Source of the DNA: Bryobacterales bacterium KBS 96
GTDB taxonomy: Bacteria > Acidobacteriota > Terriglobia > Bryobacterales > Bryobacteraceae
NCBI GenBank assembly: GCA_000381625.1
Contig: KB906767.1
Coordinates: 1,652,629-1,716,628 of the forward strand
Length of the DNA: 64,000 nucleotides
Direction of reading: 5' to 3'
Under the pieces are notes generated by a model. It saw only the letters and a list, made by a program, of their open reading frames with translations. It was not told the origin of the DNA and searched no databases. This document shows positions 11,666 to 43,080 of the stretch, piece after piece; position 1 is the first letter of the stretch; each line of letters opens with the position of its first letter. Both the position numbers and the translations under genes were made by a program.

Positions 11666-11668
11666 GAA

Positions 11669-17579: not shown

Positions 17580-17647
17580 CGAGTCACTCGCATTCAGACA
17601 CGTTAGGCCGATTCAAAGTTCATCGCAATCTCCGAAACCCGGGTGCG

Positions 17648-19144: not shown

Positions 19145-19327
19145 AATGGCGACCTCGAAACAGAATTGCGGTGTTGGGACACGGAAATACTATCATTCGT
19201 GCCATACGGCTCGCTCCGAAAAGCTCTCGGCGAAGGGGTCGAACCTTCGAACTAGCTCCTTTGTACTAACATATAATCGACTCACGACCTGAGTCCCGAG
19301 CGGCTCCCAGGATCTTCGTAGCCTCGT

Positions 19328-20596: not shown

Positions 20597-20849
20597 CGCA
20601 CGGGGCAAAATAGCCAAAGCGCGACGCAGGCCTCGCCCCTACAATAGACAATCGATTTCGTACCGGGGGCGGCATCTCCGACCCGCCTAAGTAAATCAGT
20701 AGGTTAGCGCGGATAATACGCGGTTAAACGTGGATTTCACTTCCCGCGCGTTCCGAAACAACCTATCATTCTTCGTAATCGGGTCAAGCAACATCCAGGG
20801 AAACTTCTCGCCGCTTCGGCTTTGCTTCCCCAGAGAGGATAGTCCGGTC

Positions 20850-23800
20850 ATGAAGAGAAATTCACTCGGATTCAATAGATTGCGGGGCGCGATGGCAGCG
20901 GCCGTCGTTCTTCTCTTAGTCGCGCAAGTGGGTATTCTATCGGCGCAGCAAGTGTTCGGCAACATCTATGGCACGGTCACCGATAAATCCGGTGGCGCGG
21001 TGGCTAACGCGAAGGTCACGATCACGGATGTAAACAAAAACACGAAATTCCAGGTGACCACGAATGAATCCGGCAACTACACGAAGGGACAACTCATTCC
21101 GGGTATCTACCGCGTCCAAATCGAAGCGCCTGGATTCGAAAACGTTGTTTCCAACAATCTCCAGGTCAGCATCGATCAATCGGCTCGTTTCGATGTGGCG
21201 CTTAATGTAGGCAACGTGACCGAGCAGGTTCAGGTCACCGCCGCCGCTCCTTTGCTGCAGACGGATCGTGCGGACGTGGCGCAGACGTTTACATCGAAAC
21301 AACTCCAGGATCTGCCAAACTTCGGCCGGAACCTGCAGACTTTCATGCTCCTGAACCCCGGCACGTCTCAGTTCGGCTGGAACCAGAACAACGCCGAGGA
21401 CCCGCAGGGCGGAAAGCAGATTCAGGTTAACGGCCAGGCTTTCAGTGGAACTGGATTCGAACTGGATGGGACGACAAATCAGGACCCCATCCTCGGTGAA
21501 ATCCTGATTAACCCGCCCATGGACGCCGTGAACGAAGTGAAACAAGCCTCGCAGGATTACGATGCCGAATTCGGGTACACCAGCGGCGGCATCATGACGT
21601 ATTCGACCAAGTCCGGCTCCAACGCATTTCATGGGTCCGCGTTTGAGTACATTTATCTGAACACGCCTGGGTTTCAGGATTTTGCGCGAAATCCATTCAA
21701 TTCGGCTGAGGACCATGGGACGCCCACCGTCCGCTGGAATCAATTTGGCGGCTCTATCGGTGGGCGCGTGATTCCAAACAAGCTATTCTTTTTTGGCGAT
21801 GCGCAGTTAACGCGCCGAACGCAAGGGTCGTCCGTCCAGACGACGGTGCCGACCGCCGCGGCGCGAACCGGAAATTTGAGCGGGTATCCAACTACAATCT
21901 ACGATCCGAGCACGGGCGATGCCGACGGCCGGAATCGAATTGCGTTCCCGAACAATACGATTCCGAGCGACCGGCTCAGCCCTCAAGCGCTTGCTCTTCT
22001 AAACTATTTCCCGCTACCGAACACAGTGGAACAGAACAGCGGCGTGAACTACCGGAACAACTATGCCACCACCGGAGCTCAGATATTTAACACGAACCAA
22101 TGGGACACGCGCTGGGACTATTACGGCAGCGAAAAGAACACCTACTTCGGCCGCTATAGCTACGCCGGTTTCAACATCCAGGCGCCGGGAGCTTTTGGTC
22201 TGGAGGCCGGTGGTCCGTCATTCGACAACATAGGATACGCCGGAAACTCCGACGTGCTGAATCAGAGCCTTGCCGCCGGTTGGACACACACATCTAGTCC
22301 CACTTTTATTAACGAGTTTCGCTTCGGCTATATGCGTTACCGCGTCAATGCCGTTCCGAACGGAGTCGGCACAAGCCCCGCCAAAGACGCCAATATTCCC
22401 GGTCTCAATCTCGACAACTATTTCACTTCCGGAATGCCCGCGTTCTTTGTCAATGGCGACGAGGCGGGGAATGGCAACGCGAGCCTGGGTTATGCGCTGA
22501 ACATCAATTCCTGCAACTGTCCGTTGGCGCAGCGTGAGCAGCAGTACCAAGGTGTGGACAATGTCACAAAAATTGCCGGAAATCACACCTTCAAATTTGG
22601 CGTGGATATCCGATTCGCACTGAACCTACGCGTGCCCAGCGATGCGCACCGCGCGGGTGAACTCACGTTTTCACCCGGATATACGGGCGTGGTAAACAAT
22701 GTGAATGGCGCAGCCACGGAAGGCTACGGACTGGCGACGTTTTTGCTAGGCGAAGCCACTGGCTTTCGACGCTACGTCAGCACCACGACGGACGCCGAGG
22801 AACGCCAGAAGCGCTGGTTCTTCTACGGCCAGGACCAATGGCGCGCCACGCCGAAGCTAACCATCACGTATGGACTTCGCTGGGAATTGGTGTTTCCCGA
22901 AACCGTAAATAAGCCTGGAAACGGCGGATCGCTAGACCTCCGCACAGGCGATATCAACGTCTTTGGCGTGGGACTGGTTTCCGGTCACGGTATTCAGAGC
23001 ATGAATTACCATAACTTCGCGCCACGGCTCGGGGTCGCCTACCAACTGACTCCGAAGACTGTGGTGCGCATGGGGACGGGATGGTCATATAACCTCGGCA
23101 CGTTCGGATCGATTTTCGGCCACAACGTGACGCAAAATCTTCCGGTTCTCGCCATTCAGTCGCTGAACTCTCCCCAGACATTCTCCGGCGTTTTCAATCT
23201 GGCCAATGGCCCGTCGCAACCGACCTTCCTGCAGCCGGATGCGTATGGCCTCATTCCGCTTCCGGATGGCGTCGAGGCGAAAGTACGTCCGCTGACGATG
23301 GTTATGCCGCGAGTGTGGGCTTATAACGCGACAGTCGAGCAGCAACTCACGAGCAAACTGGCTGTTTCAGCAGGTTACGTGGGCAATTCGGGACGGCACG
23401 TGCTGCTCGCGAGCGGGCCAAGCTTCGACAGAAACACGCCCCTATTCCTCCCAGGCAATCCGAACGTAAACGACGGCAGGCCGTTCTATGCGAATTATGG
23501 CTGGACCCAATCGATTGACGATTACTGCAATTGCGCGAACAACCGATACGACTCTTTTCAAGCCAGCGTCAAAGTGCGTCAGCTCGCCGGTTACACGCTT
23601 CAGGGCAGCTATACCTATCAGGTAGCTCAAGGCGATGGTTATGGAAGCGCCAACTCATACACGTTCTTGTATGACCGGGCGCTTGGCTGGGGCAATCAGG
23701 ATTACATTGCGCATCACCAACTCACGTTGTCGCAGAGTTTTGATATTCCGTTCGGCCGTGGCCGCAAATGGGGCGCCAACATGAACAGATTCGTCGACTT

Positions 23801-24278
23801 CGCACTCGGCGGATGGAACGTGAGCGGCATCACCACGTTCTATAGCGGGCTGCCGTTTACGCCGGCAATTGGCACATTCCCGTCCGATTATTCCCGTCCG
23901 GATGTCGGCCCCAACGACCGCCCGGACCTTGGGAGCGGCGATCCCTACAAAGGCGCGGTGGGCAACCGCAACCAATGGTTCGTTGGCGGACTAGGCTCTA
24001 CGTTTCTGTTGCCCGCCCAGAATTCATTCGGCAACTATCCCGTGAATTCGCTCTACGGTCCGCATTTCATCAATCAGGATCTCTCGCTCGCCAAGAGCTT
24101 TGCCTTCACCGAGCGCGTGAGATTTACGCTGCGAACGGATGCCGTGAATGCGTTCAACCACACCAATCTGGGCATGCCGAACTCGAATGTAACCGATCAA
24201 TTTGCGGGCCAGATTACGGGCCTTGCTTCGCAATATCAGATGCGGCGCCTCCAGTTCAGTGGGCGCATTGACTTCTGA
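20850..24278 (+). CDS. TonB-dependent receptor, Oar-like with carboxypeptidase-regulatory-like domain
   Basis: The ATG at 20850 gives a signal peptide (RLRGAMAAAVVLLLVAQVGILSAQQ) close to the N-terminus; an earlier in-frame start at 20730 would add 40 unlikely residues. About 1142 residues in total. The regulatory-like domain (GNIYGTVTDKSGGAVANAKV) is followed by the plug, with DLPNFGRNLQTFMLLNPGTS, TGFELDGTTNQDP, QDYDAEFGYTSGGIMTYSTK and SGSNAFHG, and then a long barrel ending in Phe (SGRIDF). All motifs missing in the pseudogene at 11669-14737 are present here. The upstream transmembrane regulator may control it. There is no adjacent hydrolase, so the cargo is unknown. Confidence 0.92.
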   Translation: MKRNSLGFNRLRGAMAAAVVLLLVAQVGILSAQQVFGNIYGTVTDKSGGAVANAKVTITDVNKNTKFQVTTNESGNYTKGQLIPGIYRVQIEAPGFENVVSNNLQVSIDQSARFDVALNVGNVTEQVQVTAAAPLLQTDRADVAQTFTSKQLQDLPNFGRNLQTFMLLNPGTSQFGWNQNNAEDPQGGKQIQVNGQAFSGTGFELDGTTNQDPILGEILINPPMDAVNEVKQASQDYDAEFGYTSGGIMTYSTKSGSNAFHGSAFEYIYLNTPGFQDFARNPFNSAEDHGTPTVRWNQFGGSIGGRVIPNKLFFFGDAQLTRRTQGSSVQTTVPTAAARTGNLSGYPTTIYDPSTGDADGRNRIAFPNNTIPSDRLSPQALALLNYFPLPNTVEQNSGVNYRNNYATTGAQIFNTNQWDTRWDYYGSEKNTYFGRYSYAGFNIQAPGAFGLEAGGPSFDNIGYAGNSDVLNQSLAAGWTHTSSPTFINEFRFGYMRYRVNAVPNGVGTSPAKDANIPGLNLDNYFTSGMPAFFVNGDEAGNGNASLGYALNINSCNCPLAQREQQYQGVDNVTKIAGNHTFKFGVDIRFALNLRVPSDAHRAGELTFSPGYTGVVNNVNGAATEGYGLATFLLGEATGFRRYVSTTTDAEERQKRWFFYGQDQWRATPKLTITYGLRWELVFPETVNKPGNGGSLDLRTGDINVFGVGLVSGHGIQSMNYHNFAPRLGVAYQLTPKTVVRMGTGWSYNLGTFGSIFGHNVTQNLPVLAIQSLNSPQTFSGVFNLANGPSQPTFLQPDAYGLIPLPDGVEAKVRPLTMVMPRVWAYNATVEQQLTSKLAVSAGYVGNSGRHVLLASGPSFDRNTPLFLPGNPNVNDGRPFYANYGWTQSIDDYCNCANNRYDSFQASVKVRQLAGYTLQGSYTYQVAQGDGYGSANSYTFLYDRALGWGNQDYIAHHQLTLSQSFDIPFGRGRKWGANMNRFVDFALGGWNVSGITTFYSGLPFTPAIGTFPSDYSRPDVGPNDRPDLGSGDPYKGAVGNRNQWFVGGLGSTFLLPAQNSFGNYPVNSLYGPHFINQDLSLAKSFAFTERVRFTLRTDAVNAFNHTNLGMPNSNVTDQFAGQITGLASQYQMRRLQFSGRIDF

Positions 24279-24515
24279 GTCGCCGGAGACCGATAAGAAA
24301 CACGACAAGCGAGATGCTTAAACAGTCCTCGGAATCGATTCCAAGCGGCGCGCCCTCTGGAGCTTAGCCGATGCAAGCCGACTTGTCGTTCAGTATCTGA
24401 CGGACACTTTCCGAGTCTCAACCAGTCGAAGCCAATTGGCGCCTAACCCACCTGAACGAACCGCTCAATTCTCCTAACGCCTTGCATCGTCGCGAGAGAT
24501 TAGGAAAATGAAATC

Positions 24516-25184
24516 ATGCAAATCGGCCTTATTGGAGGGATCGGTCCCGCAGCTACGGACTTCTATTACCGACGCTTGATAGCGACATTCGCAGCCAGGC
24601 GCTCGCCGCTGGAGTTGACGATTGCCCATGCCGACACACCGACGCTTGTAGACAATCTTGGCCGCAACGACAAAACGGCGCAGGCCGAAATATTTGCCGG
24701 GTTGGCAAGCCGGCTGGCTGCGGCCGGTGCGAACTTTGTTGCGATTACTTCAATAGCAGGACACTTCTGCATTGACTCATTCAAAGCAAAATCGCCGCTC
24801 CCCGCTGTCGACATGATCACTGAAGTCAACCGAGCAGTAGCCGCGACTGTCTTTAACCGGCTCGGCATTCTCGGAACGCGAACTGTGATGGAAACACGCT
24901 TTTATGGAGGCCTAACGACTGCTACCATCATTCCGCCGAGTGGACGAGACCTGATCGATGTACATGACGCCTATGTCGCGATGGCTGCCTCCGGCGTTGC
25001 GAATGAAGCTCAACGATCAGTGTTCGATAGGGTTAGCAGGCGACTGCTCAACGACGGCGCTCAAGCCATCATGTTGGGGGGCACCGATCTTGCATTGGTC
25101 TACAATCAGCAGACGTCCGAATTCCCGTTGATCGACTGCGCAACCATTCATATTGAGGCCATTGTCCGACTCGCCCTTGGATAA
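24516..25184 (+). CDS. Aspartate/glutamate racemase family protein lacking the catalytic cysteines
   Basis: A 222-residue protein with the family start (MQIGLIGGIGPAATDFYYRRL) and the central patterns GILGTRTVMETRFYGG and DGAQAIMLGGTDLALVYNQ. The family interconverts amino acid enantiomers using two cysteines, or Thr/Cys in E. coli YgeA. At the first site this protein reads AITSIAGHFC, keeping a Thr but not the usual Asn-Thr. At the second site the usual GCTE reads GGTD, so the cysteine is replaced by glycine. Standard two-base racemisation therefore looks unlikely, and the protein may have another activity. Length is normal and the frame intact. The preceding 237 bp after the TonB receptor contains no gene. 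Confidence 0.8.
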   Translation: MQIGLIGGIGPAATDFYYRRLIATFAARRSPLELTIAHADTPTLVDNLGRNDKTAQAEIFAGLASRLAAAGANFVAITSIAGHFCIDSFKAKSPLPAVDMITEVNRAVAATVFNRLGILGTRTVMETRFYGGLTTATIIPPSGRDLIDVHDAYVAMAASGVANEAQRSVFDRVSRRLLNDGAQAIMLGGTDLALVYNQQTSEFPLIDCATIHIEAIVRLALG

Positions 25185-25262
25185 TAACTATTTGATGTCG
25201 ACGCCTGAGCTCAAGGGCCACTTATTCGGTGCTCTCGCTGTTTTCAGTACCCAGGAGGAATT

Positions 25263-25844
25263 ATGTCGAGCCACGGAAATGCAACAGTATCAAGAGTAAC
25301 GTTGCACGTGGTTTTAAGCCTTGATGGGTTCATCGCGAGGAAGGATAACAGTGTCTCCTGGCTGGATGCCAATGGAAGCATCTATGAACCTGGAGTTTCC
25401 GTTTCGGAGGAAGAAGCCGCGGCTTTCGTCAAAGCCATAGACTGTTACGTGCTCGGTTCTCGCACGTATGAACATGCACTTGAACTGGGCTGGCCATATG
25501 GCGATACTCCGGCCGTAGTAGTAACAGGAAGGAAATTGCCGTCGACCAGGAAGAGTGTCGAGTTCTACTCGGGCGATCTCAAGGCACTGCTTGATGAGAA
25601 ACTCGCACCTCGATATCGAAACATTTGGCTCGTGGGCGGGGCGATGTTGTCCCAGCGTTTTCTCGAATTCGGCTTGGTGGACGAAATTAGGTTGACTATA
25701 GCTCCTATCCTATTGGGTGACGGACTGCGGCTATTCGGTGGCTCTCTGAAGGAAGAGAGGTGGGATTTGAAGAACGTGGTCGCGTACAAGAACGGCTTCG
25801 TTGAGTTATCATACTCCGCCACCACGGAGCGAGGCGCTTCTTGA
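25263..25844 (+). CDS. Dihydrofolate reductase family protein (RibD C-terminal-like)
   Basis: A 193-residue NADPH-binding reductase-fold protein. The N-terminal strand LHVVLSLDGFIARKDNSVSWL and the C-terminal block KALLDEKLAPRYRNIWLVGGAMLSQRFLEFGLVDEIRLTI...LLGDGLRLFG (given here in parts) are the signature of the stand-alone RibD C-terminal/DHFR-like family. In-frame PAVVVTGRKLP also fits. A strong ribosome-binding site (AGGAGG, 25253-25258) sits upstream of the ATG. The actual substrate of such stand-alone proteins is usually unknown. It follows the racemase-family gene by 78 bp and may be co-transcribed with it. Confidence 0.85.
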   Translation: MSSHGNATVSRVTLHVVLSLDGFIARKDNSVSWLDANGSIYEPGVSVSEEEAAAFVKAIDCYVLGSRTYEHALELGWPYGDTPAVVVTGRKLPSTRKSVEFYSGDLKALLDEKLAPRYRNIWLVGGAMLSQRFLEFGLVDEIRLTIAPILLGDGLRLFGGSLKEERWDLKNVVAYKNGFVELSYSATTERGAS

Positions 25845-26079
25845 TTGCCGACCTGCGACCGAAATCACAACTCGCATGGCGACAGCTATTGCCGCGATGA
25901 ATCACGCCCCATGTGGTCGCCAGACTCGCGAGCGCGGACCTTCACTCGGCGCGCGTAATTGTTTCCGAATAGTTCCAATGTCAGGGGTCGTCCGTCCGGG
26001 CACTAAACGATCGAAGGATCGAGGCCGCCTCCGACCCGCCAAGACGTATACGCAGGTCGGACCAGCTATCTGCCTACGC

Positions 26080-26475
26080 CTAGTGATGGAAGAATGCTGA
26101 GGACGGGCTCTGCCCGGAATCTGCTCCGCTTTCTTCGAGGTCCATCCGTTCGATTAGAGCGTCTCTGGTGGTATAGAAATGCCAGACCTCGCTATCTGAG
26201 AGCACATCGCCACCAAGGCTCTTTACGAGCTGACGGACTCTGACATCGATCTTGCCCGCTCCGCGGTCGATCACCTCGATTGGCGTGACGTGGGGATCAA
26301 ATTCTTTCCACTGCCGGCTCCAGTAGGCACGAATCTCTTGTTTGCCTACGACACGTCCGCCTTCCGATGCTTTGGGCCAGCTGACGCTTTCACTCATCAG
26401 CGCCAATGCACCATCGATGTTCCGTTGGTTGAACGCAGCGTAGACGCCGGCTATGACTGCCTGTGTGTTTGCCAT
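26080..26475 (-). CDS. SnoaL-like/NTF2-fold protein
   Basis: The ATG at 26475 is chosen because GGAG lies 7-8 bases upstream and the protein then begins with the family's typical first helix (MANTQAVIAGVYAAFNQRNI). A longer frame from 26643 lacks such support. The 131 residues show the SnoaL pattern: DGALALMSESVSWP, GKQEIRAYWSRQWKEF, then strands with DVRVRQLVKSLGG and SEVWHFYTTRDALIERMDL. The fold is a cone-shaped dimer used for many small-molecule isomerase, cyclase or hydrolase roles; substrate unknown. It stands alone and converges on the DHFR-family gene. Confidence 0.75.
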   Translation of the reverse strand: MANTQAVIAGVYAAFNQRNIDGALALMSESVSWPKASEGGRVVGKQEIRAYWSRQWKEFDPHVTPIEVIDRGAGKIDVRVRQLVKSLGGDVLSDSEVWHFYTTRDALIERMDLEESGADSGQSPSSAFFHH

Positions 26476-26636
26476 ACAGTTCTCCGTTTGGTAATCATTA
26501 ACCTGCAATGACCATGATAGGTCCTGAGAAACGTGATCTCGTTGCCCAACTTCGGTCGGCCACTCGGAAAGGCATTTCTGCCGGCCCAGCGCTGAGTTAA
26601 TGCTTGTGCAGACATGCGCGATATTTTTGAAGGCAC

Positions 26637-26726
26637 CGGACACACGACCGGACCGTCTGCTAGTCTGCGAATTCAGAGTCTGTCAACGTCCGTCGAAATC
26701 AGCAAAACGAATCGGCGTATCTTCAT
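26637..26726 (+). repeat. Direct repeat, copy A (left side of the arsenosugar segment)
   Basis: This ~90-bp stretch matches 31092-31179 in the same orientation at roughly 87% identity by eye, including exact blocks such as GTCTGCGAATTCAGAGTCT and TCGAAATCAGCAAAAC. The match stops in both copies close to a TTCATG. Copy A runs into the start of a recognisable oxidoreductase remnant; copy B runs into unrelated sequence. The two copies bracket about 4.4 kb with the sterol desaturase and the arsenosugar operon. Confidence 0.85.
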
Positions 26727-26850
26727 GCGCGCCGCCCTTGCCACGGCCGCCTCGTATAGCCGTATTCCGGGCGCGAACGATCGGATTCGCATCGGGGCCA
26801 TTGTGACCAGTGAGCGCTGCCAATATCTGCTCAGCCTGGTGAGTTCATGA
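26710..26850 (+). pseudogene. Gfo/Idh/MocA oxidoreductase, N-terminal fragment
   Basis: About 46 codons (NRRIFMRAALATAASYSRIP, then GANDRIRIGAIVTSERCQYL) that resemble the twin-arginine-type leader and first NAD-binding strand of acidobacterial Gfo/Idh/MocA oxidoreductases. Those usually read RRTFL...AASYSR..GANDRIRxGxIGxGxRG. The glycine-rich nucleotide loop has already degenerated (GAIVTSER) and the frame stops at 26848-26850, so only the first tenth of a ~400-residue enzyme is left. It begins inside direct repeat copy A. This may be what remains after a rearrangement. The remaining ~180 bp to the sterol desaturase gene contain nothing recognisable. Confidence 0.6.
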
Positions 26851-27032
26851 TCGCACCGGATTCCACGCGGCGTTGCGGCTGTCATGGCCGTTCAAGCCGC
26901 CCCGGTGTGCTGCCTGTCACAATACGGCTGGCGAGCGCGGCCGCAGCGTTCCCAATCTTGGCTGGTTTGCTTGCAGTGGCATACGGAATTTCGATTCGAG
27001 ATTGGAGTTAGTCACGTCTAATTTCAAGCGCC

Positions 27033-27878
27033 ATGAAAAATCCCATTCCAAACTCGGTTCGCGGCATCATCATCGGAACGTGGATCGCCGGTCTTGTCTG
27101 GCTTGAGAACAGACGCGCACTGCGCGCCGTTCATACGAGTAAGCTGCGGCGTGACGTTCGCAACCTCGTGATAGCAGTTCCCGCAGGTGGCGTAATGCAG
27201 GCTTTGGAATTGCCGATCGCGTTCAAGCTGGCAGAGTTGGCGCAGCGCAAGAAGTGGGGTATCCTACGCCGTTTGCCTTTGCCGCCCGTTGTCGCCGGCG
27301 CTGTAGGCATCCTTCTGCTCGATTACACGCTTTACTGGTGGCATTTCTTAACGCACCGTGTTCCCTTTCTGTGGCGATTTCACCAAGTCCACCACCTCGA
27401 CCAGGAGATGGACGCCACAACGGCTCTCCGTTTTCACTTCGGCGAGATCACGATTTCAGTCGCTTTCCGGGCAGCGCAGATTATCGTCATCGGCCCCACG
27501 CCTACAACCGTGGCCTTCTGGCAAGTCTTCCTATTTCTCTGCATTCTCTTCCATCATTCGAACGTACGCCTGCCACTCGCTTTGGAGCGGAGAATAGCGC
27601 GCATCGTAATTACGCCGCGCCTCCACGGCATCCATCACTCCATCGCGCCAGAAGAGGTGAATTCGAACTGGTCGAGCGGATTTAGCATTTGGGATCTGCT
27701 TCACGCCACCTTGCGGACCGAGACGCCGCAGCATACTCTTACACTCGGCGTTCGCGGATTTCTCGGAGGGTCGGAAGACACGATTTGTAAGGCTTTGCTC
27801 TTCCCATTTCATATTCCAGGCGAACCACCTGAATATAATCAAGTGCAGGTCAGGCAATCGTTCGATGCACTTGCTTAG
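27033..27878 (+). CDS. Sterol desaturase/fatty acid hydroxylase superfamily membrane protein
   Basis: A 281-residue integral membrane protein with the eight-histidine di-iron pattern of the superfamily: HFLTHRVPFLWRFHQVHH (HxxxH and HxxHH types) at about residues 107-124, HHSN near residue 176 and HGIHHS near residue 203. It has several hydrophobic segments. Family members hydroxylate or desaturate lipids, carotenoids or sterols; the bacterial substrate is not predictable. The 3' end overlaps the convergent glycosyltransferase gene by 4 bp. It sits inside the segment bracketed by the direct repeats. Confidence 0.88.
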   Translation: MKNPIPNSVRGIIIGTWIAGLVWLENRRALRAVHTSKLRRDVRNLVIAVPAGGVMQALELPIAFKLAELAQRKKWGILRRLPLPPVVAGAVGILLLDYTLYWWHFLTHRVPFLWRFHQVHHLDQEMDATTALRFHFGEITISVAFRAAQIIVIGPTPTTVAFWQVFLFLCILFHHSNVRLPLALERRIARIVITPRLHGIHHSIAPEEVNSNWSSGFSIWDLLHATLRTETPQHTLTLGVRGFLGGSEDTICKALLFPFHIPGEPPEYNQVQVRQSFDALA

Positions 27879-28561
27879 CCAGTTGCGCGCCGCGCGTGAC
27901 GATACCAGCGCGCGAGTAGGTTGGGAGACACGCCGCCCCAATACAGAACCTGCAAAACCGTCCAGTGCATCCACATCAGAGCGAAATTCTTATTCTCAAA
28001 ACGCCGCGATGAAGTCATGATGCGGCTTTTGAGATGCACGAATCGTCCGGCTCTTCGGAGGCGCTGTAATAGATCCAAGTCTTCAAACAGCGCAAACGAT
28101 CGGAAGCCGCCAATGGCGTCGTAGATCGTTCGGCGAACGAAAATGCCGGAATCCCCGTAACAGAGATTCAGCAAACGCAAGATGGGATAAATCGCGGTAA
28201 GCTGCCGCGCCGCTCGAGACGCACCATCGAATGTGAGTCCGAAATTTCCGCCCGCAACAGAAGGATCGCTCAATGCAGCGACAATGTCGGCCAAGGCATG
28301 CGTGGGTGGGATTGTATCTGCATGCACAAACCACAGAATGTTGCCGCGAGCCTTGAGCGCTCCTGTATGTTGCTGAAGGCCCCGGCCACGAGCGCTCGGC
28401 AGTACAACCACTCCCGACTCCTGGGCCACCGCAACTGTCGCATCCTCACTGCCGCCGTCGACGACCAGAATCTCCTTCTCTCCTTCGAGCGCCTGAAGGG
28501 CTTCAAGCGTCGTCCGAATTTGTGAAGCTTCATTCAGCGCTGGAACGATGATGCTGACCAT
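27875..28561 (-). CDS. Family 2 glycosyltransferase, arsenosugar-cluster type (TIGR04283-like)
   Basis: A 228-residue GT-A enzyme. The N-terminus VSIIVPALNEASQI, the metal-site region ILWFVHADTIPP (DxD equivalent HAD) and ALFEDLDLLQRLRRAGRF are typical. The product ends with a short membrane-associated region (MHWTVLQVLYWGGVSP). Its length and paired context with the next gene fit the TIGR04283 family named for arsenosugar clusters. It is last in the minus-strand operon and its start overlaps the preceding gene by 28 bp. Proposed role: sugar transfer in making an arsenic-containing glycoside or lipid. The substrate has not been shown. Confidence 0.85.
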   Translation of the reverse strand: MVSIIVPALNEASQIRTTLEALQALEGEKEILVVDGGSEDATVAVAQESGVVVLPSARGRGLQQHTGALKARGNILWFVHADTIPPTHALADIVAALSDPSVAGGNFGLTFDGASRAARQLTAIYPILRLLNLCYGDSGIFVRRTIYDAIGGFRSFALFEDLDLLQRLRRAGRFVHLKSRIMTSSRRFENKNFALMWMHWTVLQVLYWGGVSPNLLARWYRHARRATG

Positions 28562-29205
28562 GAAGTCTCATCAAACCATTTGCGTGTTTGAGGCGCAATG
28601 GTCAGAGGCAGAAGATCCAACTGGCTTCGTAGCCGTTCGAGATCCGCAAACGTATCTACATCGAATAGACTTCTAATTGTTCCTACTCTCATGCCTCGCG
28701 CCTTTAGGCGCTGCGCTGTTCCTCGATAAGTTTCTTCGCTGCTCCAAGGTAGATCTGCAAGAACACCGGAAGGGCAATCGTGTACTCCCAACAGGTAAAA
28801 CCCCCCATCGTCCGATGGGCCGAGAACCGCGTCTTTTCTGTTAAGACATTCGATGGCTTCGTCCAGGTGACCCGCTGTAAGAAGAGGTGAGTCTGCGCCT
28901 AGCGCAATGGCGGCCGGCGCCGCCTGCAGCCCACACCGCAAGATGCCTTCAATTCGCCAGCCCAGATCGCCACATTGCTGCAACCAAACCCTTTCGCTCG
29001 GGACATCAAGAGGAAACGAGCCGGATTCCGCGGCAGCGAGCACCGGAAAAACTCCTGCCACATTATGCACAACAGACCACACGTCGCACAACATGGCGGA
29101 AGCCAATCGAGCAGCCTCAACCTGGCCGAGGAAACACGCGAGACGCGTTTTAACACGCCCGGGAATCGGAGGCTTAGCGAAAACACAGACAGGAATTCCG
29201 GTCAC
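28534..29205 (-). CDS. DUF2064/TIGR04282-type glycosyltransferase of arsenosugar clusters
   Basis: A 223-residue nucleotide-transferase-fold protein starting at a GTG. Marker motifs are CVFAKPPIPGRVKTRLA at the N-terminus, IALGADSPLL in the centre and VLGPSDDGGFYLLG, all characteristic of the DUF2064 (TIGR04282) family. The family is found with ArsS and the TIGR04283 glycosyltransferase, and its fold resembles the MobA/CofC nucleotidyltransferases. The 180 bp between this gene and arsS hold no gene. It overlaps the downstream glycosyltransferase gene by 28 bp, so the two products are probably made together. Confidence 0.85.
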   Translation of the reverse strand: MTGIPVCVFAKPPIPGRVKTRLACFLGQVEAARLASAMLCDVWSVVHNVAGVFPVLAAAESGSFPLDVPSERVWLQQCGDLGWRIEGILRCGLQAAPAAIALGADSPLLTAGHLDEAIECLNRKDAVLGPSDDGGFYLLGVHDCPSGVLADLPWSSEETYRGTAQRLKARGMRVGTIRSLFDVDTFADLERLRSQLDLLPLTIAPQTRKWFDETSWSASSFQR

Positions 29206-29385
29206 AAGTTCTCACAACTGGAAGCTTCTTACAAGCCCTTGTCTCAAGTTAACTAACGCATGCTGCCGATACTATCGAAGTAAACATTCCTGGGTATCAC
29301 TCGCGATAGAAATGGCAACTCCGCACCTCCGGCCGTGCCTCGCAAGAGGTCCGCTTCCGCGGCAACCGACGATTGCAATCCCAGT

Positions 29386-30354
29386 TCAGGTTGCTGCCGA
29401 GCTACGCAGTTGGCCACCACAGCTCGACCCCGCGCCGGCAGTACAACCGAAGCAGTGGTCGCCCAGTTGAATCGCCTTGCCCGCCGCCGGGCGGAACGAA
29501 TCCATGTCCCAGATAGAGAGGCGCCCGGGAGTGGGCAGTTCCAACATCTGATTGAAGTCGCAATCATAGAGTCGCCCATCCCAGGAGACGCTAATCAATC
29601 TGCGGCACATCACGTACTCCAACGTCGCCGGATTGAAGTTATCCTCTAGAAGGTTGCGGTACGACTCCTCTTTGCCGATACGCACCAGATAATCTGAAAA
29701 CCGGCGAATCGGCATGTTCGTGATGGTCAGCAAGCGGCCGAATTCGATTCCGAAGTCTTCTCGCAAGCGTCGCTTGTAGTCAAATTCCAACGCTTCCTGC
29801 GGAGGACAAAGCGTAGCGCCTACTGGATTAAACACGAGATCCAGACGCAGATCAGACCCCGCTTGGCCGTAGCCCAACCGATTCAAAAGTCGCAGTGCCT
29901 GGATGCTCCGATCGAAGACGCCGCGGCCGCGTTGCCTATCTACGTTTTCGGCCGTGTAACAGGGCAAGCTTGCAATAATGTGTACCCCTTGCGCACGGAG
30001 GAATTCCGCTAAATCCTCGAACCCAGGTTCCAGCAAGACTGTCAGATTGCAACGGTCGATAACTCGCTTCTGGAGAACGCGGCTGCCTTGCACGAGTGCA
30101 CGGAAATTCGGATTCAACTCCGGGGCTCCGCCTGTTATGTCCACGGTCTGCACTTCAGGTGTGCTTTGCAGCAGTTGAAGCACTCGCTTCGCAGTTTCCT
30201 GTGTCATGCTCTCAATCCGCTTCGGCCCCGCTTCCACGTGACAGTGATGACAAGCCTGATTGCAAATTTTGCCTACATTGACCTGCAGAGTTTCGATCGA
30301 GGCGCGGCGCAGACCGTCAAATCCGTGCTGCCGCAATGTAGAGGCAAAGGTCAT
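29386..30354 (-). CDS. arsS: Arsenosugar biosynthesis radical SAM protein
   Basis: A 322-residue radical SAM enzyme. The 4Fe-4S cluster motif CNQACHHCH (Cys31, Cys35, Cys38) is followed by DITGGAPELNPNFRALV. A C-terminal cysteine block CFGCTAGAGSSCGG completes the ArsS pattern. In cyanobacteria ArsS works with the methyltransferase ArsM to attach a 5'-deoxyadenosyl group to dimethylarsenite, the first step to oxo-arsenosugars. No arsM gene is visible in the window. Its ATG overlaps the stop of the upstream VKOR-like gene (ATGA), so they are co-translated. Confidence 0.92.
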   Translation of the reverse strand: MTFASTLRQHGFDGLRRASIETLQVNVGKICNQACHHCHVEAGPKRIESMTQETAKRVLQLLQSTPEVQTVDITGGAPELNPNFRALVQGSRVLQKRVIDRCNLTVLLEPGFEDLAEFLRAQGVHIIASLPCYTAENVDRQRGRGVFDRSIQALRLLNRLGYGQAGSDLRLDLVFNPVGATLCPPQEALEFDYKRRLREDFGIEFGRLLTITNMPIRRFSDYLVRIGKEESYRNLLEDNFNPATLEYVMCRRLISVSWDGRLYDCDFNQMLELPTPGRLSIWDMDSFRPAAGKAIQLGDHCFGCTAGAGSSCGGQLRSSAAT

Positions 30355-30917
30355 TTCGAGCGAAGAAATTTGATCGCTTTCAGAGCCTCAGGTAGGGTCA
30401 GCGCAAAAATGCCGAAATTCGCAATCGCGCCCCCAATGCAGTAAGCACACCACTTCTTTTCCTTTGTGGGCATTTGATAGAAGTACCAGCCTGCCGCTAT
30501 CGCCTCCGCGGCTGACTTTAGGCTGGCTGCGATTGGAACGTACGGAATAGTCTCAAATCGAGAGTCGCCGCCGAAACCAGCGAGGGGCAAGTTCGCGGCT
30601 AAACCTGCAATGCTGAGCGTTCCATCCGGAGTTCCTAGCCGATAAGCGGTGTCGGATGAATTGACCTTGTCCGAGTCAAAGCTGCCGGAAGGCGGATCGG
30701 GAAGATGCTTCACGATGCCGGTTTGCAACAGGCTTACGATCGCCATATTCGCCATTCCGAATAAAGACAGGCCCACAATTGTGCGCCTACGCCTCATGTC
30801 TGCGTTACTGGATCCCTGCAACTGATTGCGAAGTTCGGCCGGCTTCAACCCGGTACCCAGGGCCATGCTCTGCTCGCTCAAAGACGTTCTCCCTCTTCCC
30901 ACGATAGCCGGACACAA
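30351..30917 (-). CDS. Vitamin K epoxide reductase (VKOR)-like membrane protein
   Basis: A 188-residue protein with a hydrophobic stretch after an Arg-rich patch (RRRRTIVGLSLFGMANMAIVSLLQTG). A helix runs into WCAYCIGGAIANFGIFALTL, where the CxxC sits at the end of a membrane helix as in VKOR redox proteins, and an upstream segment (IPYVPIAASLKSAAEAIAAG) also fits. The first ~40 residues are polar, so translation may start at an internal Met (Met18 or Met41). VKOR-like proteins drive disulfide formation through quinones. Its position directly before arsS, with ATGA overlap, suggests a redox role in the arsenic pathway. That link is inference. Confidence 0.65.
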   Translation of the reverse strand: MCPAIVGRGRTSLSEQSMALGTGLKPAELRNQLQGSSNADMRRRRTIVGLSLFGMANMAIVSLLQTGIVKHLPDPPSGSFDSDKVNSSDTAYRLGTPDGTLSIAGLAANLPLAGFGGDSRFETIPYVPIAASLKSAAEAIAAGWYFYQMPTKEKKWCAYCIGGAIANFGIFALTLPEALKAIKFLRSK

Positions 30918-31289
30918 TTGACAGTGTTTGATGTAATTTCAACCTGCCAAAGAGGATGAGAATTCTCGGAGGGCACGCGCCATAGCCGGTCGCTATGCCG
31001 TCGGATTATGCGTCAGTCGGCAAACATCTTTGCCGATGTTATGCCCGGAACGCATCGATTTCGAAAACTAACATCGAGGAAGCAAGAGCCCACGGACACG
31101 ACCGAACTGTCTGGTAGTCTGCGAATTCAGAGTCTCTCATTGTCCATCGAAATCAGCAAAACCGATCGGCGTGTTCATGAGGAATAGCGCAATTGGTTGG
31201 TTTCGGCGACCATCACCCTGGAACAGATTGGCAAAGGCGATAACTCTTGAATTTTCGATATGTGGCCGCTTCTCATTAGCGAGCGAGTT
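30918..31289. other. Intergenic region upstream of the arsenosugar operon
   Basis: About 370 bp without a gene. It contains direct repeat copy B (31092-31179) and probably the promoter of the minus-strand arsenosugar operon. After the repeat a short frame opening with a degenerate RR-type leader can be read, but it shows no resemblance to a protein. No clear terminator for the WaaA-LpxK gene was found here. Confidence 0.5.
31092..31179 (+). repeat. Direct repeat, copy B (right side of the arsenosugar segment)
   Basis: Same orientation and about 87% identical by eye to 26637-26726, with one 2-nt gap near the left end and one near the right end. Like copy A it encodes a K-T-(N/D)-R-R leader-like start, but here the frame is broken by a one-base loss before the TTCATG. 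Together with copy A it brackets the sterol desaturase and arsenosugar genes. Confidence 0.85.
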
Positions 31290-33665
31290 CTAATATCGAA
31301 TTTTCGCGAATCGCGCCGAAAGCGCCGATTCAATCCAAGACAGCAGTTCTTCTTCATCGTCGACAGTATTTTCGATCTCGAGCCACGCGACATCCAGCGG
31401 CGCCAGCGACGACGCAAAATCGCGCGGGAAATTAATCCTGTCCTTCTCTGTCGTCACCAGCATTTCCGCTCCCGCCCGGAGCGCCTGAGAAGCGATGCGC
31501 CTCAGTTCCAACTGCTGATAAACATGGTGATCCGGAAAGCTCCAATGGAACACCACATTGAGCCCTATCCCATCCAAGGTGTTCCAAAACGCTTGTGGAT
31601 TGCCCAAAGCGCAGAAGGCGCCGACCTTCTTTGCCGGAAGATCATCGACAACTTGCCGTTTCGAGTAAAGCCGCCATTGCCGCGGCCGTGTTCGCACGCG
31701 GAAAATAGGCGCAACTTGATTGAACCGGCGCAACTCCTTCCGCAAGTGTTCGAACCGCGGATCGTGATCGGCACGCGACACAATCAACACGTCGGCCCGA
31801 CCCAGCGCCTCCACAGGTTCCCGTAAACGACCCAACGGAACCAGGAACCCGCGCCCGAATGGCATCAAGCCATCGATCATGACAATATCGATATCCCGGT
31901 GTAACCTGGCATGCTGGAACCCATCGTCGAGCACGAAAATATCTGCCGGAAAGTGCTCAAGCAGCAGCCGGCCGGTTTCCGCCCGATTTGCGCCGATGCC
32001 GATCGGGCAGATACCAGCACGTAAAAAGATCTGCGCCTCATCTCCCGTTAACGCGGGCGAGACGCCGGCGCCGGCGGGGATGATAATATTTTTCGCGGGC
32101 GTTGCCCGGCGATATCCGCGCGTCAGCACAGCCGGATGGTAGCCCCGCAGCCGCAGGCATCTCGTCAGGTAGTTGGTGAATGGCGTTTTCCCTGCCCCGC
32201 CCACCGTGATGCCTCCTATGCTGATCACCGGGACCGGCAGATGTTGCTGCCGCGCCAGATCCCGCCGCCGCTTCAGAAGACTCCCCGCTTCCCAGAGTCC
32301 CGCCAGCGGCGCCAGCACTAGCCGCGCGAGTATCCCGGGCGAAACCTTCATGCTGGCGGCCCAGTACATAGGCCACACTCTCTCCATCACGCGTTCAGCG
32401 GCGCCCTGCTGCTGGCCGATGATTTGCTGAGCGCGCCGGCCCATTGTTTCCGCAGTCGCGGTGTCGTGAAGTAGTTGGGAGATGGCGGGCGCCAGGTCAT
32501 CGCGGCTCTCCACCTGCATGAGCGCGCCGCCACCGGCAAAGTCGCGAGCGATTGCCTCGAAGTTCTCCATGTGCTTACCGGTGACAATCGGAACGCCGCA
32601 GGCGGCAGGCTCTAGAATGTTGTGGCCGCCGCGCGGGGCGATTGACCCGCCAACGAACACCACGTCGGCCATCGAGAATGCGCCGCTCAATTCCCCGATT
32701 GTGTCGAGCAGCAGCACGCCCGGAAGGCGCAGCGAAGGATGGAACTGGTTCTGAGTCGCGGTCCTCCGGACAAAGGAAATGCCGCGGTCGCGAAGCTTGC
32801 GCGCGACAGCCTCGAAGCGTGCGGGTTGCCGCGGCGCAAGAATCAGCAACAGTTCCGGGAATCCTTCCGACAGCTTTTGAAAGGCATCCAGCACGATATC
32901 GTCTTCATCGACATCGTGCTTGTAATGACGCGAATCGCCAGGGCCAACTGTGCTCGCCGCAATCCAGATTTGCCGTGCATCGAACGCCGGCAGAAATGCC
33001 GCCGGCACGGTGCTGGATGCATCGTATTTCAAGTTTCCAGCAGTGTGCAGCTTTGCGGGTGCAACGCCCAACTGATAGTACCGGTCGCGATCGGCGATAC
33101 TCTGTGGAAACACAGCATCGGCCAGCCGCAAAACCGGCGCGAAGAACCATTTCATCGCAGCGTATTGAGGCCAGGATTTACTAGAGATGCGCGCATTTAC
33201 TAAGATCAGGCAAGCACCGAAACGCTTACTTTCGGCATAGAGGCTCGGCCAAATTTCGGTTTCGAGAATCATTACCATGGACGGCTTGATCGCGTTCAAT
33301 GCTCGCCGGATGCAGGATGGATAATCGAGGGGGCAGAAGAAGACGCCATCCGCTAGTTCGCGAAGCCGCTTATCCGCCGCGCTTCGTCCTGCAAGGGTGG
33401 TGGTTGAAACGAAAATGGCCACGCGCGGGTCGCCGGCGCGGATTCGCTGGATCAGCGGCACTACCGTTGCAATCTCTCCGGCGGAAACGGCGTGCAACCA
33501 GATGGAACCCGGCGCCGTCCGTTTGAAGGATCTGGGAAGGAATCCCAGGCGTTCACCGAAATGACTCCAGTAGGCACAGCGGCTGAGAAGCCGCGTCGCG
33601 AAGTAGAGAATGACGAAAGGAAGCGAAACGAGCTGTACTACACGATAAGGAAAGAGAATGGGCAC
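31290..33665 (-). CDS. Fused Kdo transferase (WaaA) and lipid A 4'-kinase (LpxK)
   Basis: One uninterrupted frame holds two lipid A enzymes. The N-terminal half (about 430 residues) is 3-deoxy-D-manno-octulosonic acid transferase: WLHAVSAGE with its catalytic Glu, ILETEIWPSL, NARISSKS, and VGGSIAPRGGHNILEPAACG for CMP-Kdo binding. The C-terminal half (about 350 residues) is tetraacyldisaccharide 4'-kinase: GGITVGGAGKTPF (Walker A), LTRGYRR and FVLDDGFQHARLHRDI. Both act at the inner membrane in successive Raetz-pathway steps, in which LpxK makes lipid IVA and WaaA adds Kdo. The GTG at 33665 is preferred, with GGA about 5 bases upstream; the TTG at 33719 is less likely. This start overlaps the divergent gene at 33658 by 8 bp. 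Confidence 0.92.
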   Translation of the reverse strand: MPILFPYRVVQLVSLPFVILYFATRLLSRCAYWSHFGERLGFLPRSFKRTAPGSIWLHAVSAGEIATVVPLIQRIRAGDPRVAIFVSTTTLAGRSAADKRLRELADGVFFCPLDYPSCIRRALNAIKPSMVMILETEIWPSLYAESKRFGACLILVNARISSKSWPQYAAMKWFFAPVLRLADAVFPQSIADRDRYYQLGVAPAKLHTAGNLKYDASSTVPAAFLPAFDARQIWIAASTVGPGDSRHYKHDVDEDDIVLDAFQKLSEGFPELLLILAPRQPARFEAVARKLRDRGISFVRRTATQNQFHPSLRLPGVLLLDTIGELSGAFSMADVVFVGGSIAPRGGHNILEPAACGVPIVTGKHMENFEAIARDFAGGGALMQVESRDDLAPAISQLLHDTATAETMGRRAQQIIGQQQGAAERVMERVWPMYWAASMKVSPGILARLVLAPLAGLWEAGSLLKRRRDLARQQHLPVPVISIGGITVGGAGKTPFTNYLTRCLRLRGYHPAVLTRGYRRATPAKNIIIPAGAGVSPALTGDEAQIFLRAGICPIGIGANRAETGRLLLEHFPADIFVLDDGFQHARLHRDIDIVMIDGLMPFGRGFLVPLGRLREPVEALGRADVLIVSRADHDPRFEHLRKELRRFNQVAPIFRVRTRPRQWRLYSKRQVVDDLPAKKVGAFCALGNPQAFWNTLDGIGLNVVFHWSFPDHHVYQQLELRRIASQALRAGAEMLVTTEKDRINFPRDFASSLAPLDVAWLEIENTVDDEEELLSWIESALSARFAKIRY

Positions 33666-34242
33666 ACTTCCAAAGACAGGACTCGTGTTTATGAGTATAG
33701 CGTTGGCTTTCGCGGCCAAACCCGAGAAAGATTTCCATCCCGGACCTCCGGACCAATACCATCACCAGGCGAATAATGGGGTCACTATCGGCGCCCGGTA
33801 TTTCGATAATCTCGACGCCACGAAACCCATATTCGGCAAGAAAGCCGACCTGAACCGTTACGGCGTCCTGCCGGTTTTGCTGGTGATTCAGAACGACCGC
33901 AAGCAATCGTTGGATCTGCAAAATCTGGAAGTAAAACTGGAAGGCGCCGACTCACACAGCATCATTCCACTAACGGCGTCGGAAGTTCCCTTCATCGCCG
34001 TTCCGGTAAATCAACCCACGATCGGGCGGAAATCGCCACTGTCGCGCGGCCACAAGAATCCGCTCAACGTTCCGGAAATCGTTAGCCGCGCGTTTGCGGC
34101 CAGGATGCTGCCCGCCGGCGATAAGGCAAGCGGATTTTTCTATTTCCGCGCCGCCAGCGAACCCGGCATGCACCTCTACGTCAGCGGCATTTATGAGCGC
34201 CCTTCAGGCAAGGAACTGCTTTACTTCGAGATCCCACTCTGA
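33658..34242 (+). CDS. Secreted protein of unknown function
   Basis: A 194-residue protein with an N-terminal signal peptide (LPKTGLVFMSIALAFAAKP) and a good ribosome-binding site (AAGGAAAG, 33647-33654) before the ATG. Visible features are GARYFDNLDATKPIFGKKADLNRYGVLPVLLVIQND (in two parts, a hydrophobic strand within a beta-rich region) and FYFRAASEPGMHLYVSGIYE near the C-terminus. I do not recognise a family. It is the first gene of the plus-strand envelope cluster, only about 100 bp from the Trm112-like gene, and its 5' end overlaps the WaaA-LpxK start, which suggests shared promoter sequences. Confidence 0.7.
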   Translation: MGTLPKTGLVFMSIALAFAAKPEKDFHPGPPDQYHHQANNGVTIGARYFDNLDATKPIFGKKADLNRYGVLPVLLVIQNDRKQSLDLQNLEVKLEGADSHSIIPLTASEVPFIAVPVNQPTIGRKSPLSRGHKNPLNVPEIVSRAFAARMLPAGDKASGFFYFRAASEPGMHLYVSGIYERPSGKELLYFEIPL

Positions 34243-34344
34243 GCGAAGCGCCGCCAGCGCAACCGTTGTAGTATGATTGCGCCGCCGGAGTCCCGTGAAA
34301 GAAGCGGCGAAACGTTCCGCAACCTTGTTAAACTATAGAGTTGC

Positions 34345-34515
34345 ATGCCTATCTCCAAGGAACTGCTTGACATTCTGGTTTGCCCGGTCTGCAAGGAAAC
34401 CGTGGAACTCAAACCGGACGGAAGCGGCTTGAAATGCGTTAAATGCAAACGCGTCTACCCGGTTAGGGACGATATCCCGATTATGCTGGTGGACGAAGCA
34501 ACCGTGGAAGACTGA
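34345..34515 (+). CDS. Trm112 family (YcaR-like) small zinc-ribbon protein
   Basis: A 56-residue protein, too short for most automatic filters. It begins SKELLDILVCPVCKETVELK and continues with CVKCKRVYPVRDDIPIMLV, so it has two CxxC pairs and the conserved YPxxDxIPxML end of the Trm112/UPF0434 family. In Proteobacteria ycaR sits next to lpxK and kdsB, which matches the location here beside lpxK and LPS genes. Trm112 in other organisms activates methyltransferases; the bacterial role is not settled. The stop is 3 bp before the next start. Confidence 0.9.
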   Translation: MPISKELLDILVCPVCKETVELKPDGSGLKCVKCKRVYPVRDDIPIMLVDEATVED

Positions 34516-34518
34516 CCG

Positions 34519-35433
34519 ATGACGGTGCTTGATCAATTGCCTGAGGGCGCGCGCGTATGCGTTGTACGGCTGCGCTCGATGGGCGATTGTGTCCTGACAA
34601 CCCCAGGGCTTGCACTGCTGAAACAGGCCCGCCCGGATGTCGAGATCGCGGTCGTCGCTGAACCCCCGTTTGCGCCCGTGTTCGCGGGAAATCCCGCCAT
34701 TGCGAGGATTCTTCCCCCGTATTGGACGGCTGTACGCGCATGGCTTCCAACGCTTTGTGTTAATCTTCACGGAGGCACGCGCAGCCTTTGGCTGACGCTT
34801 ATGAGCGGGGCCAAGTGGCGGGCGGGCTTCATCCACCATAACTTCACATTCGCTTATAACATCAAGATCGGCCGCGCGCAGAACATCCTCGGAGTGCATC
34901 GCACCGTCCATACGGCGGAGCATCTGGCTTCGGCCTTCTTCGCGCTGGGAGTGCCGGTGACGGACATTCCACGGGCGCAATTACACGCCGGTGAATCGCC
35001 CATGGCCGGACGCTACGCGGTCCTGCATCCATTCGCGTCATCTCCCGAAAAGACGTGGCCCACCCAACGTTTTTGCGAACTGGCCCGCTATCTTAAGCTT
35101 TGGAATGTCGAACCCGTGTTCCTCGCGGGGCCCGGCGATGACGCCAGCCCGTTCTTCGAATACCGAGTTTTTCGTGAGCCGCTCGATCGCGTGAAGGCGC
35201 TCATCTCGAAGGCCACGCTGTTTGTAGGGAACGACAGTGGACCAGCGCACATGGCGGCAGCCTTCAGCGTGCCGAGCGTCGTTCTGTTCGGCCCGTCGAA
35301 GCCCGCCATCTGGGGGCCGTGGCAGACTGAATCGGAAATTATTGTCGCGCCCGATGGCCTCCAACACATTCCAGTCTCTCGCGCGATCGCTGCGCTTGAC
35401 CGGCTACGCAGTCTGGAAGAGGCGCACGCTTGA
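34519..35433 (+). CDS. Glycosyltransferase family 9, LPS heptosyltransferase type
   Basis: A 304-residue GT-B enzyme of family GT9, which transfers heptose or related sugars onto the inner core of lipopolysaccharide. It starts ...VCVVRLRSMGDCVLTTP, the usual N-terminal substrate loop (RxxxxGD). Near the end it has FVGNDSGPAHMAAAFSVPSVVLFGPSKP, the nucleotide-sugar site. The mid-region HPFASSPEKTWPTQRF also fits. Its stop overlaps the msbA start (TTGA), so translation is coupled. The genes before and after place it in envelope assembly; the exact sugar donor cannot be read from sequence. Confidence 0.92.
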   Translation: MTVLDQLPEGARVCVVRLRSMGDCVLTTPGLALLKQARPDVEIAVVAEPPFAPVFAGNPAIARILPPYWTAVRAWLPTLCVNLHGGTRSLWLTLMSGAKWRAGFIHHNFTFAYNIKIGRAQNILGVHRTVHTAEHLASAFFALGVPVTDIPRAQLHAGESPMAGRYAVLHPFASSPEKTWPTQRFCELARYLKLWNVEPVFLAGPGDDASPFFEYRVFREPLDRVKALISKATLFVGNDSGPAHMAAAFSVPSVVLFGPSKPAIWGPWQTESEIIVAPDGLQHIPVSRAIAALDRLRSLEEAHA

Positions 35434-37253: not shown

Positions 37254-37279
37254 CAACTCTTCCCGGCTCTCACTCAAAG

Positions 37280-38200
37280 ATGATCGAAGCAAAAGCTCAA
37301 AACCACCCGGTCCGCAGCATGACCGGTTACGCCCGCATACGCCACGAGACTCCGCTCGGTGAATTGACCGTCAGCCTGCGTAGCGTGAATCACCGCGGGC
37401 TCGATTTCCATTTCTTCCTGAACGGGGAGTTCGCGGCCTTCGAGAACGCGATCCGTTCCGCGCTGAAGCAACACATCAGCCGCGGGCACGTCGAGGTCCG
37501 CATATCGCTGGTCCGCGGTGACGCAACTTCCAAGGCCGGGTACAACCGGCAACTCATTGCCGATTACGTCGCGGCATTCCGCCAGGCAGCAGCCGAATTC
37601 GAGCTGAAAGGCCAGCCGGATCTGAACACGGCTCTTCGCATGCCCGGCGCCTTTGCCGCCGAAAGCGAAGTCAACAGCGTGGAAAGCGCCTTCGAACCGA
37701 AAGTGCTGGCGGCAATGGCTGCTTGTGCCGCGGAGTTGAACGCGTTCCGCGAGCGTGAAGGCGCCCAGTTGCGGGAACTGTTCCGCGCGGAGGTCGAAGC
37801 GATTCGGCGACAGACCCGGCGAATGAAAGAAATCCGCGCCGAAGCGCTGCCGCATTTCCAGCGCCGCCTTGCCGAACGCCTACAGGAACTGCTGGGCGCC
37901 ACGGGAATCGACCAGCGCCGCCTCGCCGAAGAGGCCGCAATGCTGACGGACCGCTCCGACGTCGAGGAAGAACTGTCGCGGCTCGAAATTCACACGGCGC
38001 AATTGACGGAACTGCTCGACGCCGGGGGAGAGGTTGGCAAACGCCTGGATTTCCTGCTGCAGGAGATGAATCGCGAGACCAATACCGTTCTATCGAAAAC
38101 GTCCGGCATCGGCGAGGCCGGCCTCACTCTCACCGATCTTGCGCTCGCAACCAAGGCAAATATCGAGAAAATACGCGAGCAGTCGTTGAATCTCGAATAA
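37280..38200 (+). CDS. YicC family endoribonuclease
   Basis: A 306-residue cytoplasmic protein. The YicC start MTGYARIRHE...SVNHRGLDFHFFL and the C-terminal GKRLDFLLQEMNRETNTVLSK are diagnostic. E. coli YicC degrades the small RNA RyhB and is an RNase. The order yicC-gmk-rpoZ-coaBC is common in bacteria and is seen here with short gaps (about 20, 6 and 16 bp), which indicates one operon. The gene is intact and of normal length. Confidence 0.93.
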   Translation: MIEAKAQNHPVRSMTGYARIRHETPLGELTVSLRSVNHRGLDFHFFLNGEFAAFENAIRSALKQHISRGHVEVRISLVRGDATSKAGYNRQLIADYVAAFRQAAAEFELKGQPDLNTALRMPGAFAAESEVNSVESAFEPKVLAAMAACAAELNAFREREGAQLRELFRAEVEAIRRQTRRMKEIRAEALPHFQRRLAERLQELLGATGIDQRRLAEEAAMLTDRSDVEEELSRLEIHTAQLTELLDAGGEVGKRLDFLLQEMNRETNTVLSKTSGIGEAGLTLTDLALATKANIEKIREQSLNLE

Positions 38201-38219
38201 GGAGCATGCAGAAACCAGA

Positions 38220-38846: not shown

Positions 38847-38852
38847 GAAGGA

Positions 38853-39098: not shown

Positions 39099-39114
39099 GC
39101 GCTCGAGCACCGGC

Positions 39115-43055: not shown

Positions 43056-43080
43056 CGGGTGTGACAAAGTCTCCGCCAAG

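Follow-up and report, generated by a model that had tools for sequence, protein, structure and literature searches.

Does a pair of direct repeats around a set of arsenosugar genes mark the vehicle on which these genes travelled, or does it have another origin? The question is raised by a locus of Bryobacterales bacterium KBS 96, lying in a window of 64,000 nucleotides (the whole stretch of DNA analysed), in which an initial annotation reported a direct repeat at 26637-26726 (copy A) and 31092-31179 (copy B) with about 87% identity, and suggested that the 4.4 kb between the copies had been inserted by recombination within a duplicated gene leader, or could be excised through them. The repeat itself has been confirmed. 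Its ungapped core is formed by 26642-26718 in A and 31096-31172 in B, both in the same orientation, with 88% identity over 77 nt and a start-to-start spacing of 4,454 bp, and, when gaps are allowed, it reaches approximately 26636-26728 and 31090-31182, near the limits first given. The longest exact run shared by the two copies is 21 bp. Since this is the sole direct repeat of at least 45 nt in the whole 64-kb window (seed 12), the similarity between A and B is not due to chance. As argued below, A and B are probably relics that were left at an unstable junction by duplication of part of a Gfo/Idh/MocA oxidoreductase gene, its 5' end, and that bracket the arsenosugar genes simply by position.

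What the repeats are is settled by an intact third copy. When the genome (6,692,160 bases in two contigs) was searched for the repeat, with all 13 of 13 candidates scored, it was found at three places only, namely A, B and a copy C at C1:921100-921223, whose match is extended to C1:921100-921301 by a longer query. Copy C is 0.76 Mb away from A and B, in a locus unrelated to theirs, and consists of the leader and the 5' end of an intact 399-codon gene for a Gfo/Idh/MocA oxidoreductase. Thus, A and B are both copies of the 5' part of a single gene, truncated and mutated, and an intact homologue of this gene is present at 921 kb; the idea of a duplicated gene leader is borne out:

26636-26838, + strand: copy A, the decayed 5' part of a Gfo/Idh/MocA oxidoreductase gene (identity to C1:921100-921301 of 85.7% over 203 nt; codon analysis).
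31090-31182, + strand: copy B, the 5' part of this Gfo/Idh/MocA gene in a shorter, likewise decayed form (88% identity to A over 77 nt; 86% to C over 79 nt).

Copy A is made up of a 50-nt leader, an ACG that replaces the start codon at 26686, and 51 homologous codons (26686-26838), its Gfo frame ending at a TGA at 26848-26850. Copy B retains the leader, a TTG instead of the ATG at 31140, and about 12 codons (31140-31174). The initial annotation was therefore right in stating that A enters Gfo/Idh/MocA codons, and mistaken in describing B as followed by unrelated sequence. Measured on C, the right edge lies at 203 nt in A and at about 86 nt in B, C being the full gene; neither A nor B continues into the remainder of it. 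The genome contains 37 matches to the copy C protein at E <= 0.001. Just 5' of the fatty acid hydroxylase gene described below, and overlapping the TGA of copy A by an ATGA, there is a 54-codon open reading frame (ORF; 26847-27011, + strand) with a hydrophobic stretch at its end and no Pfam or NCBIfam match, which may be either a small membrane protein or a chance frame.

The differences between A and C are those of a gene and its decaying copy. In the coding part, 20 of 153 sites differ, 12 of them at third, 4 at first and 4 at second codon positions, an excess of third positions over one third (p 0.013) that would be expected if one of the two sequences compared were an intact gene under constraint. 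Taking as outgroups the orthologues from four family genomes (G014, G028, G007 and G020), the 8 differences at first or second positions can be assigned to the A branch in 4 cases and to the C branch in none, the other 4 being ties, which, small as the sample is, fits a loss of coding constraint in copy A. In the leader, which is about 50 nt long, there are 8 substitutions and 1 indel, a divergence that is not below that of the codons, and this argues against the leader alone having been kept for regulation. Both A and B would appear to be non-functional.

Regarding the age of the relics, A and C differ at about 14% of all sites and at 12 of 51 third positions, whereas in seven genes 577 of 1,501 four-fold sites (38%) differ between this genome and its congener G001, so that the duplications probably postdate the split between the two species. 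The leader and first codons of C were also compared with 237 genomes of the family (E <= 0.01, at most three candidates scored per genome). Eight genomes were matched, the own genome (A, B and C) and seven others, six of which matched in coding sequence only. In the seventh (G076), the first 26 nt of the leader were matched with 93% identity (E 0.005 in that genome), inside a coding frame resembling a thiolase by eye; given that about one such match is expected by chance across 237 genomes, it is at chance level. This match aside, the leader was not found in the other 236 of the 237 family genomes, nor was an empty site. The expected counterpart, a genome with one repeat copy joined to a full Gfo gene in the absence of the 4.4 kb, was likewise not encountered among them.

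Signs of instability are seen on the right side of the site, where comparison with the congener is possible. Contig C44 of G001 matches window positions 31290-40334 and 41902-43056 with 85-87% identity, the approximately 1.5 kb between the two blocks being absent from G001. The match begins exactly at 31290, which is the last base of the stop codon of a KdtA-LpxK fusion gene, 118 bp past the core of B. Beyond that stop codon, G001 continues with genes for an ArsR-type regulator and an arsenite methyltransferase (ArsM), whose counterparts in KBS 96 are found at 6.0229 Mb, beside unrelated genes. Taking into account that G001 joins arsR-arsM at the point where the window has the flank of B, a rearrangement between the two species has its breakpoint at 31290. 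The far side of this rearrangement (6.012-6.0245 Mb in KBS 96) was searched for a scar like A or B, and nothing resembling the window was found. Between B and the fusion gene there is a second short relic, which matches the vicinity of a gene assigned to the class III aminotransferases by PF00202:

31203-31269, + strand: second short relic, 78% identity over 67 nt to sequence just 3' of the class III aminotransferase gene at 4.04 Mb.
31290-33719, - strand: KdtA-LpxK fusion; synteny with the congener G001 breaks at its stop codon.

Some observations around these features can be recorded here. The same KdtA-LpxK end is adjoined by different arsenic genes in the two species (arsR-arsM: L118:11602-12919, L199:10927-12195). 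The aminotransferase gene (L137:4401-5590) changes frame near its 3' end, and may be a pseudogene or reflect a sequencing error. Short stretches of the congener contig C44 (L188:4340-4580 and 10361-10700) match dozens of scattered places in this genome with 72-94% identity, as dispersed short repeat families of the genus would do.

On the left, stretches within 1533-18106 match another contig of G001, C79, which ends there, and comparison of 19300-31289 with G001 gave only a paralogue of the TonB receptor and two matches shorter than 50 bp (40 of 50 candidates scored). After the TonB-receptor gene, a 42-bp intergenic stretch (24375-24416) is 86% identical to C1:5264696-5264737 on the other strand, and may be a small dispersed element. 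The four intergenic stretches that adjoin A and B were also searched for relics of the 921-kb locus, through eight comparisons, none of which beat the best of 30 shuffles with one exception, the + strand upstream of B (28 versus 26); the stretch upstream of A tied at 26.

The five genes that lie between the repeats are as follows:

27033-27878, + strand: fatty acid hydroxylase superfamily protein ("sterol desaturase"; PF04116, E 4.4e-25).
27875-28561, - strand: TIGR04283 arsenosugar-type family 2 glycosyltransferase (216 against an NCBIfam cut-off of 182 bits).
28534-29205, - strand: TIGR04282 CofC-like arsenosugar-type glycosyltransferase (143 against an NCBIfam cut-off of 134 bits).
29386-30354, - strand: ArsS, arsenosugar biosynthesis radical SAM protein (TIGR04167, 438 against a cut-off of 300 bits).
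30351-30917, - strand: VKOR-family protein, first gene of the arsenosugar operon (PF07884, E 6.9e-13).

The product encoded at 27033-27878, first labelled a sterol desaturase, is more exactly a member of the fatty acid hydroxylase superfamily. The segment had also been regarded as a complete functional unit, and the scores of ArsS and of both glycosyltransferase families agree with the arsenosugar part of that description; the word complete is too strong. ArsM belongs to the arsenosugar pathway, and no arsM was found among the segment genes (27033-30917) in NCBIfam and Pfam searches, so that the segment is not a complete pathway by itself. The ArsM encoded at 6.02 Mb passes the cut-off for general arsenite methyltransferases (369 against 263 bits) and fails that for the arsenosugar-type ArsM (114 against 400). 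Around ArsS in 92 other loci, tblastn detected no VKOR relative covering at least 40%. Relatives of the fatty acid hydroxylase are located near ArsS in 5 of those 92 loci (L202, L210, L211, L215 and L261), which hints at a recurrent arsenosugar/arsenolipid link.

The proposal that the arsenosugar genes were brought in from elsewhere has fared well. Of 61 genomes searched, 24 gave an ArsS match at E <= 1e-40; the 37 family genomes included contributed 8 of these (the own genome counted), and no match at that threshold came from the congener G001, which is 88% complete. In a tree of 93 rows (the window ArsS, the 80 loci that ranked best among at least 590 in named genomes, and a further 12 from the 23 other loci of the family and order), the window protein groups with those of Candidatus Brocadia and Candidatus Jettenia (support 0.82), and an Acidobacteriaceae metagenome-assembled genome stands next to this group with a support of only 0.13. 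All 12 of the 12 family and order members are at distances of 1.45-1.75, in comparison with 0.87-0.96 for the nearest three. This grouping with other phyla, apart from its own family, favours horizontal acquisition, and on the evidence of the ArsS tree a source outside the family is probable for the arsenosugar genes. Around KdtA-LpxK, none of 20 of 20 family loci gave a match to a gene of the segment or of the near left flank (TonB receptor, racemase, RibD_C, SnoaL) at E <= 1e-8, the stretch available on that side of KdtA-LpxK being longer than 5 kb in 18 of these loci and 1.0 and 3.9 kb in the other two.

Base composition and codon use, the latter proposed in the initial annotation as a comparison between the segment and its flanks, lend little support to a foreign origin and none to the insertion. 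The GC content is 0.555 in the segment, 0.566 in the left flank and 0.582 in the right flank, and the codon use of four of the five segment genes is within 1.5 standard deviations of the background, the CofC-like gene being the sole outlier (z 3.6). Outside the segment, outliers have z values of 3.1 (the racemase gene), 5.5 and 6.9. No clear mark of a foreign composition is thus seen in the segment. The ORF at 46379-47728 (z 5.5) has a GC content of 0.47 and no Pfam match, and that at 56366-58900 (z 6.9) encodes gyrase subunit A, its codon use probably being an expression effect.

That the repeats carried the 4.4 kb, or can excise it, has found no support. No recombinase or transposase was detected among 44 ORFs of the window scanned with Pfam, all five segment genes included (of these, 8 matched nothing in Pfam; ORFs that are shorter or overlap others lay outside the scan). 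The near-identical end repeats expected of attachment (att) sites are not seen here, A and B being 88% identical over 77 nt, with an exact run of 21 bp. No empty site has been found in the search of the family genomes, with at most three candidates scored in each and the congener rearranged here, and neither copy continues as a split target would. Thus, there is no evidence that the repeats are movers or excisers of the arsenosugar genes. Other candidates were examined and set aside: tRNA-linked integration, as there is no tRNA in the window; a plasmid or phage origin of the repeat, as the region of A has no match in plasmid and phage collections; and a structured RNA, as 26000-32000 has no Rfam match at E <= 1. 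The same happened with a common dispersed repeat (of the repetitive extragenic palindromic or miniature inverted-repeat transposable element type), since only three copies exist; many copies beside unrelated genes, the finding that the initial annotation held to be fatal to an insertion, do not occur.

The reading that best accommodates these results is the one given at the outset. Most likely, recombination or the repair of breaks would have deposited short ectopic copies of the 5' end of the Gfo gene in an intergenic stretch that is unstable, the chromosome having been broken and rejoined there; judging from their divergence, they would have formed in this lineage after its split from the congener; and the arsenosugar genes, as the ArsS tree suggests, would probably have entered the same variable block horizontally. 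It has to be noted that several points weigh against this reading. The left edges of A, B and C coincide within about 6 bp, approximately 49 nt 5' of the ATG, and only the right edges differ, while the sequences upstream of the three copies showed no clear similarity to one another in six shuffle tests; across all the shuffle tests past the repeat edges (six upstream, three downstream), the lowest p was 0.036, for A and C upstream, a local and uncorrected value. Independent random truncations would, on a rough estimate, coincide in this way only a few per cent of the time, and this improbability leaves room for a site-specific or end-anchored process. Among the 12 third-position differences between A and C, the outgroups share the base of A at 6 and that of C at 4, with 2 ties, so that change has not all occurred on the relic. 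Finally, as contig C79 ends at 18106 and G001 is 88% complete, the left flank may be present in G001 outside the assembled sequence.

The coincidence of the left edges would be directly explained if A and B were 5'-anchored copies, produced for instance by one-ended transposition or by a reverse transcriptase that copied an mRNA as far as its 5' end and ran off there, with right edges falling at 203 nt, at about 86 nt and, in C, at the end of the full gene. A and B would then be bacterial retrocopies of the 5' end of one gene, inserted on either side of an acquired operon. We consider this hardly credible: no good -10 box is visible by eye just upstream of the edge in C, and no reverse transcriptase or transposase was found among the 44 ORFs scanned with Pfam in the window, the rest of the genome not having been scanned for them. 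It is very improbable, too, that the shared stretch is a regulatory leader kept before both the hydroxylase gene (A) and the arsenosugar operon (B), even if the hydroxylase gene, which begins at 27033, is preceded by A in the sense direction and the operon, which begins at 30917, by B, because B is antisense to the operon, the similarity enters codons that lack an ATG, with a leader conserved no better than these, and neither a sigma-70-like site within A or B nor an Rfam match was found.

A recombinational insertion, in which incoming arsenosugar DNA carrying a copy of the relic would have recombined with a single resident relic through one homologous crossover, giving the order A-segment-B, and in which the reverse event would remove the segment, would account for the direct orientation and the shared bounds of repeats that enclose a block whose ArsS was probably acquired, and for a B core that ends 118 bp from the synteny breakpoint. 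This is nevertheless unlikely, taking into account that A and B share an exact run of only 21 bp and that A reaches about 110 bp deeper into the gene than B, that neither a donor nor an empty site has been found, that no recombinase was found among the 44 ORFs scanned and no gene is restored, and that codon use is ordinary in four of the five genes. A further proposal is that two full tandem Gfo/Idh/MocA paralogues once stood here and lost both 3' parts as the arsenosugar genes arrived. The 37 genome matches to the protein speak of an expanded family, but searches of 19300-31400 revealed no further part of the gene (one of them scored 40 of 87 candidates), and a long duplication should, at this divergence, still share sequence preceding the leader, of which there is none clear; this proposal is highly doubtful. 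The partial-duplication reading is thus the one retained, and from it follows a caution, namely that direct repeats around a set of genes need not be its vehicle, being here the fossils of another gene. As a side result, an origin outside the family is suggested for the arsenosugar genes, which are located at a chromosomal breakpoint. Should the common left edge hold generally in this genome, it would indicate a mechanism for the copying of gene starts that is not known to have been described, no literature search aimed at it having been made.

Regarding known systems, an integrative element is a gene-bearing segment lying between direct repeats derived from a gene end. The locus resembles it in having a gene segment between such repeats, and differs from it in that no integrase or tRNA was found in the window, the target gene is unrestored on both sides, and the repeats are only 88% identical. 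Compared with an arsenosugar biosynthesis cluster, ArsS, TIGR04282 and TIGR04283 are all present above their NCBIfam cut-offs, but arsM is not inside and a VKOR-family gene comes first. The closest likeness of A and B is with the partial gene duplications and gene-fragment pseudogenes of large Acidobacteriota genomes, as short decayed copies from a paralogue-rich family. In its passages on repeats and paralogues, an account of Candidatus Solibacter usitatus, an acidobacterium with a large genome, reports numerous short repeats, most of them below 50-100 nt, and small-scale duplication throughout, with oxidoreductase-domain proteins among the paralogue groups (PMC3174227); gene fragments and pseudogenes go unmentioned in these passages. 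Against this background the finding is an ordinary one, distinguished from what those passages describe by the left edge common to its three copies and by the operon that lies between two of them.

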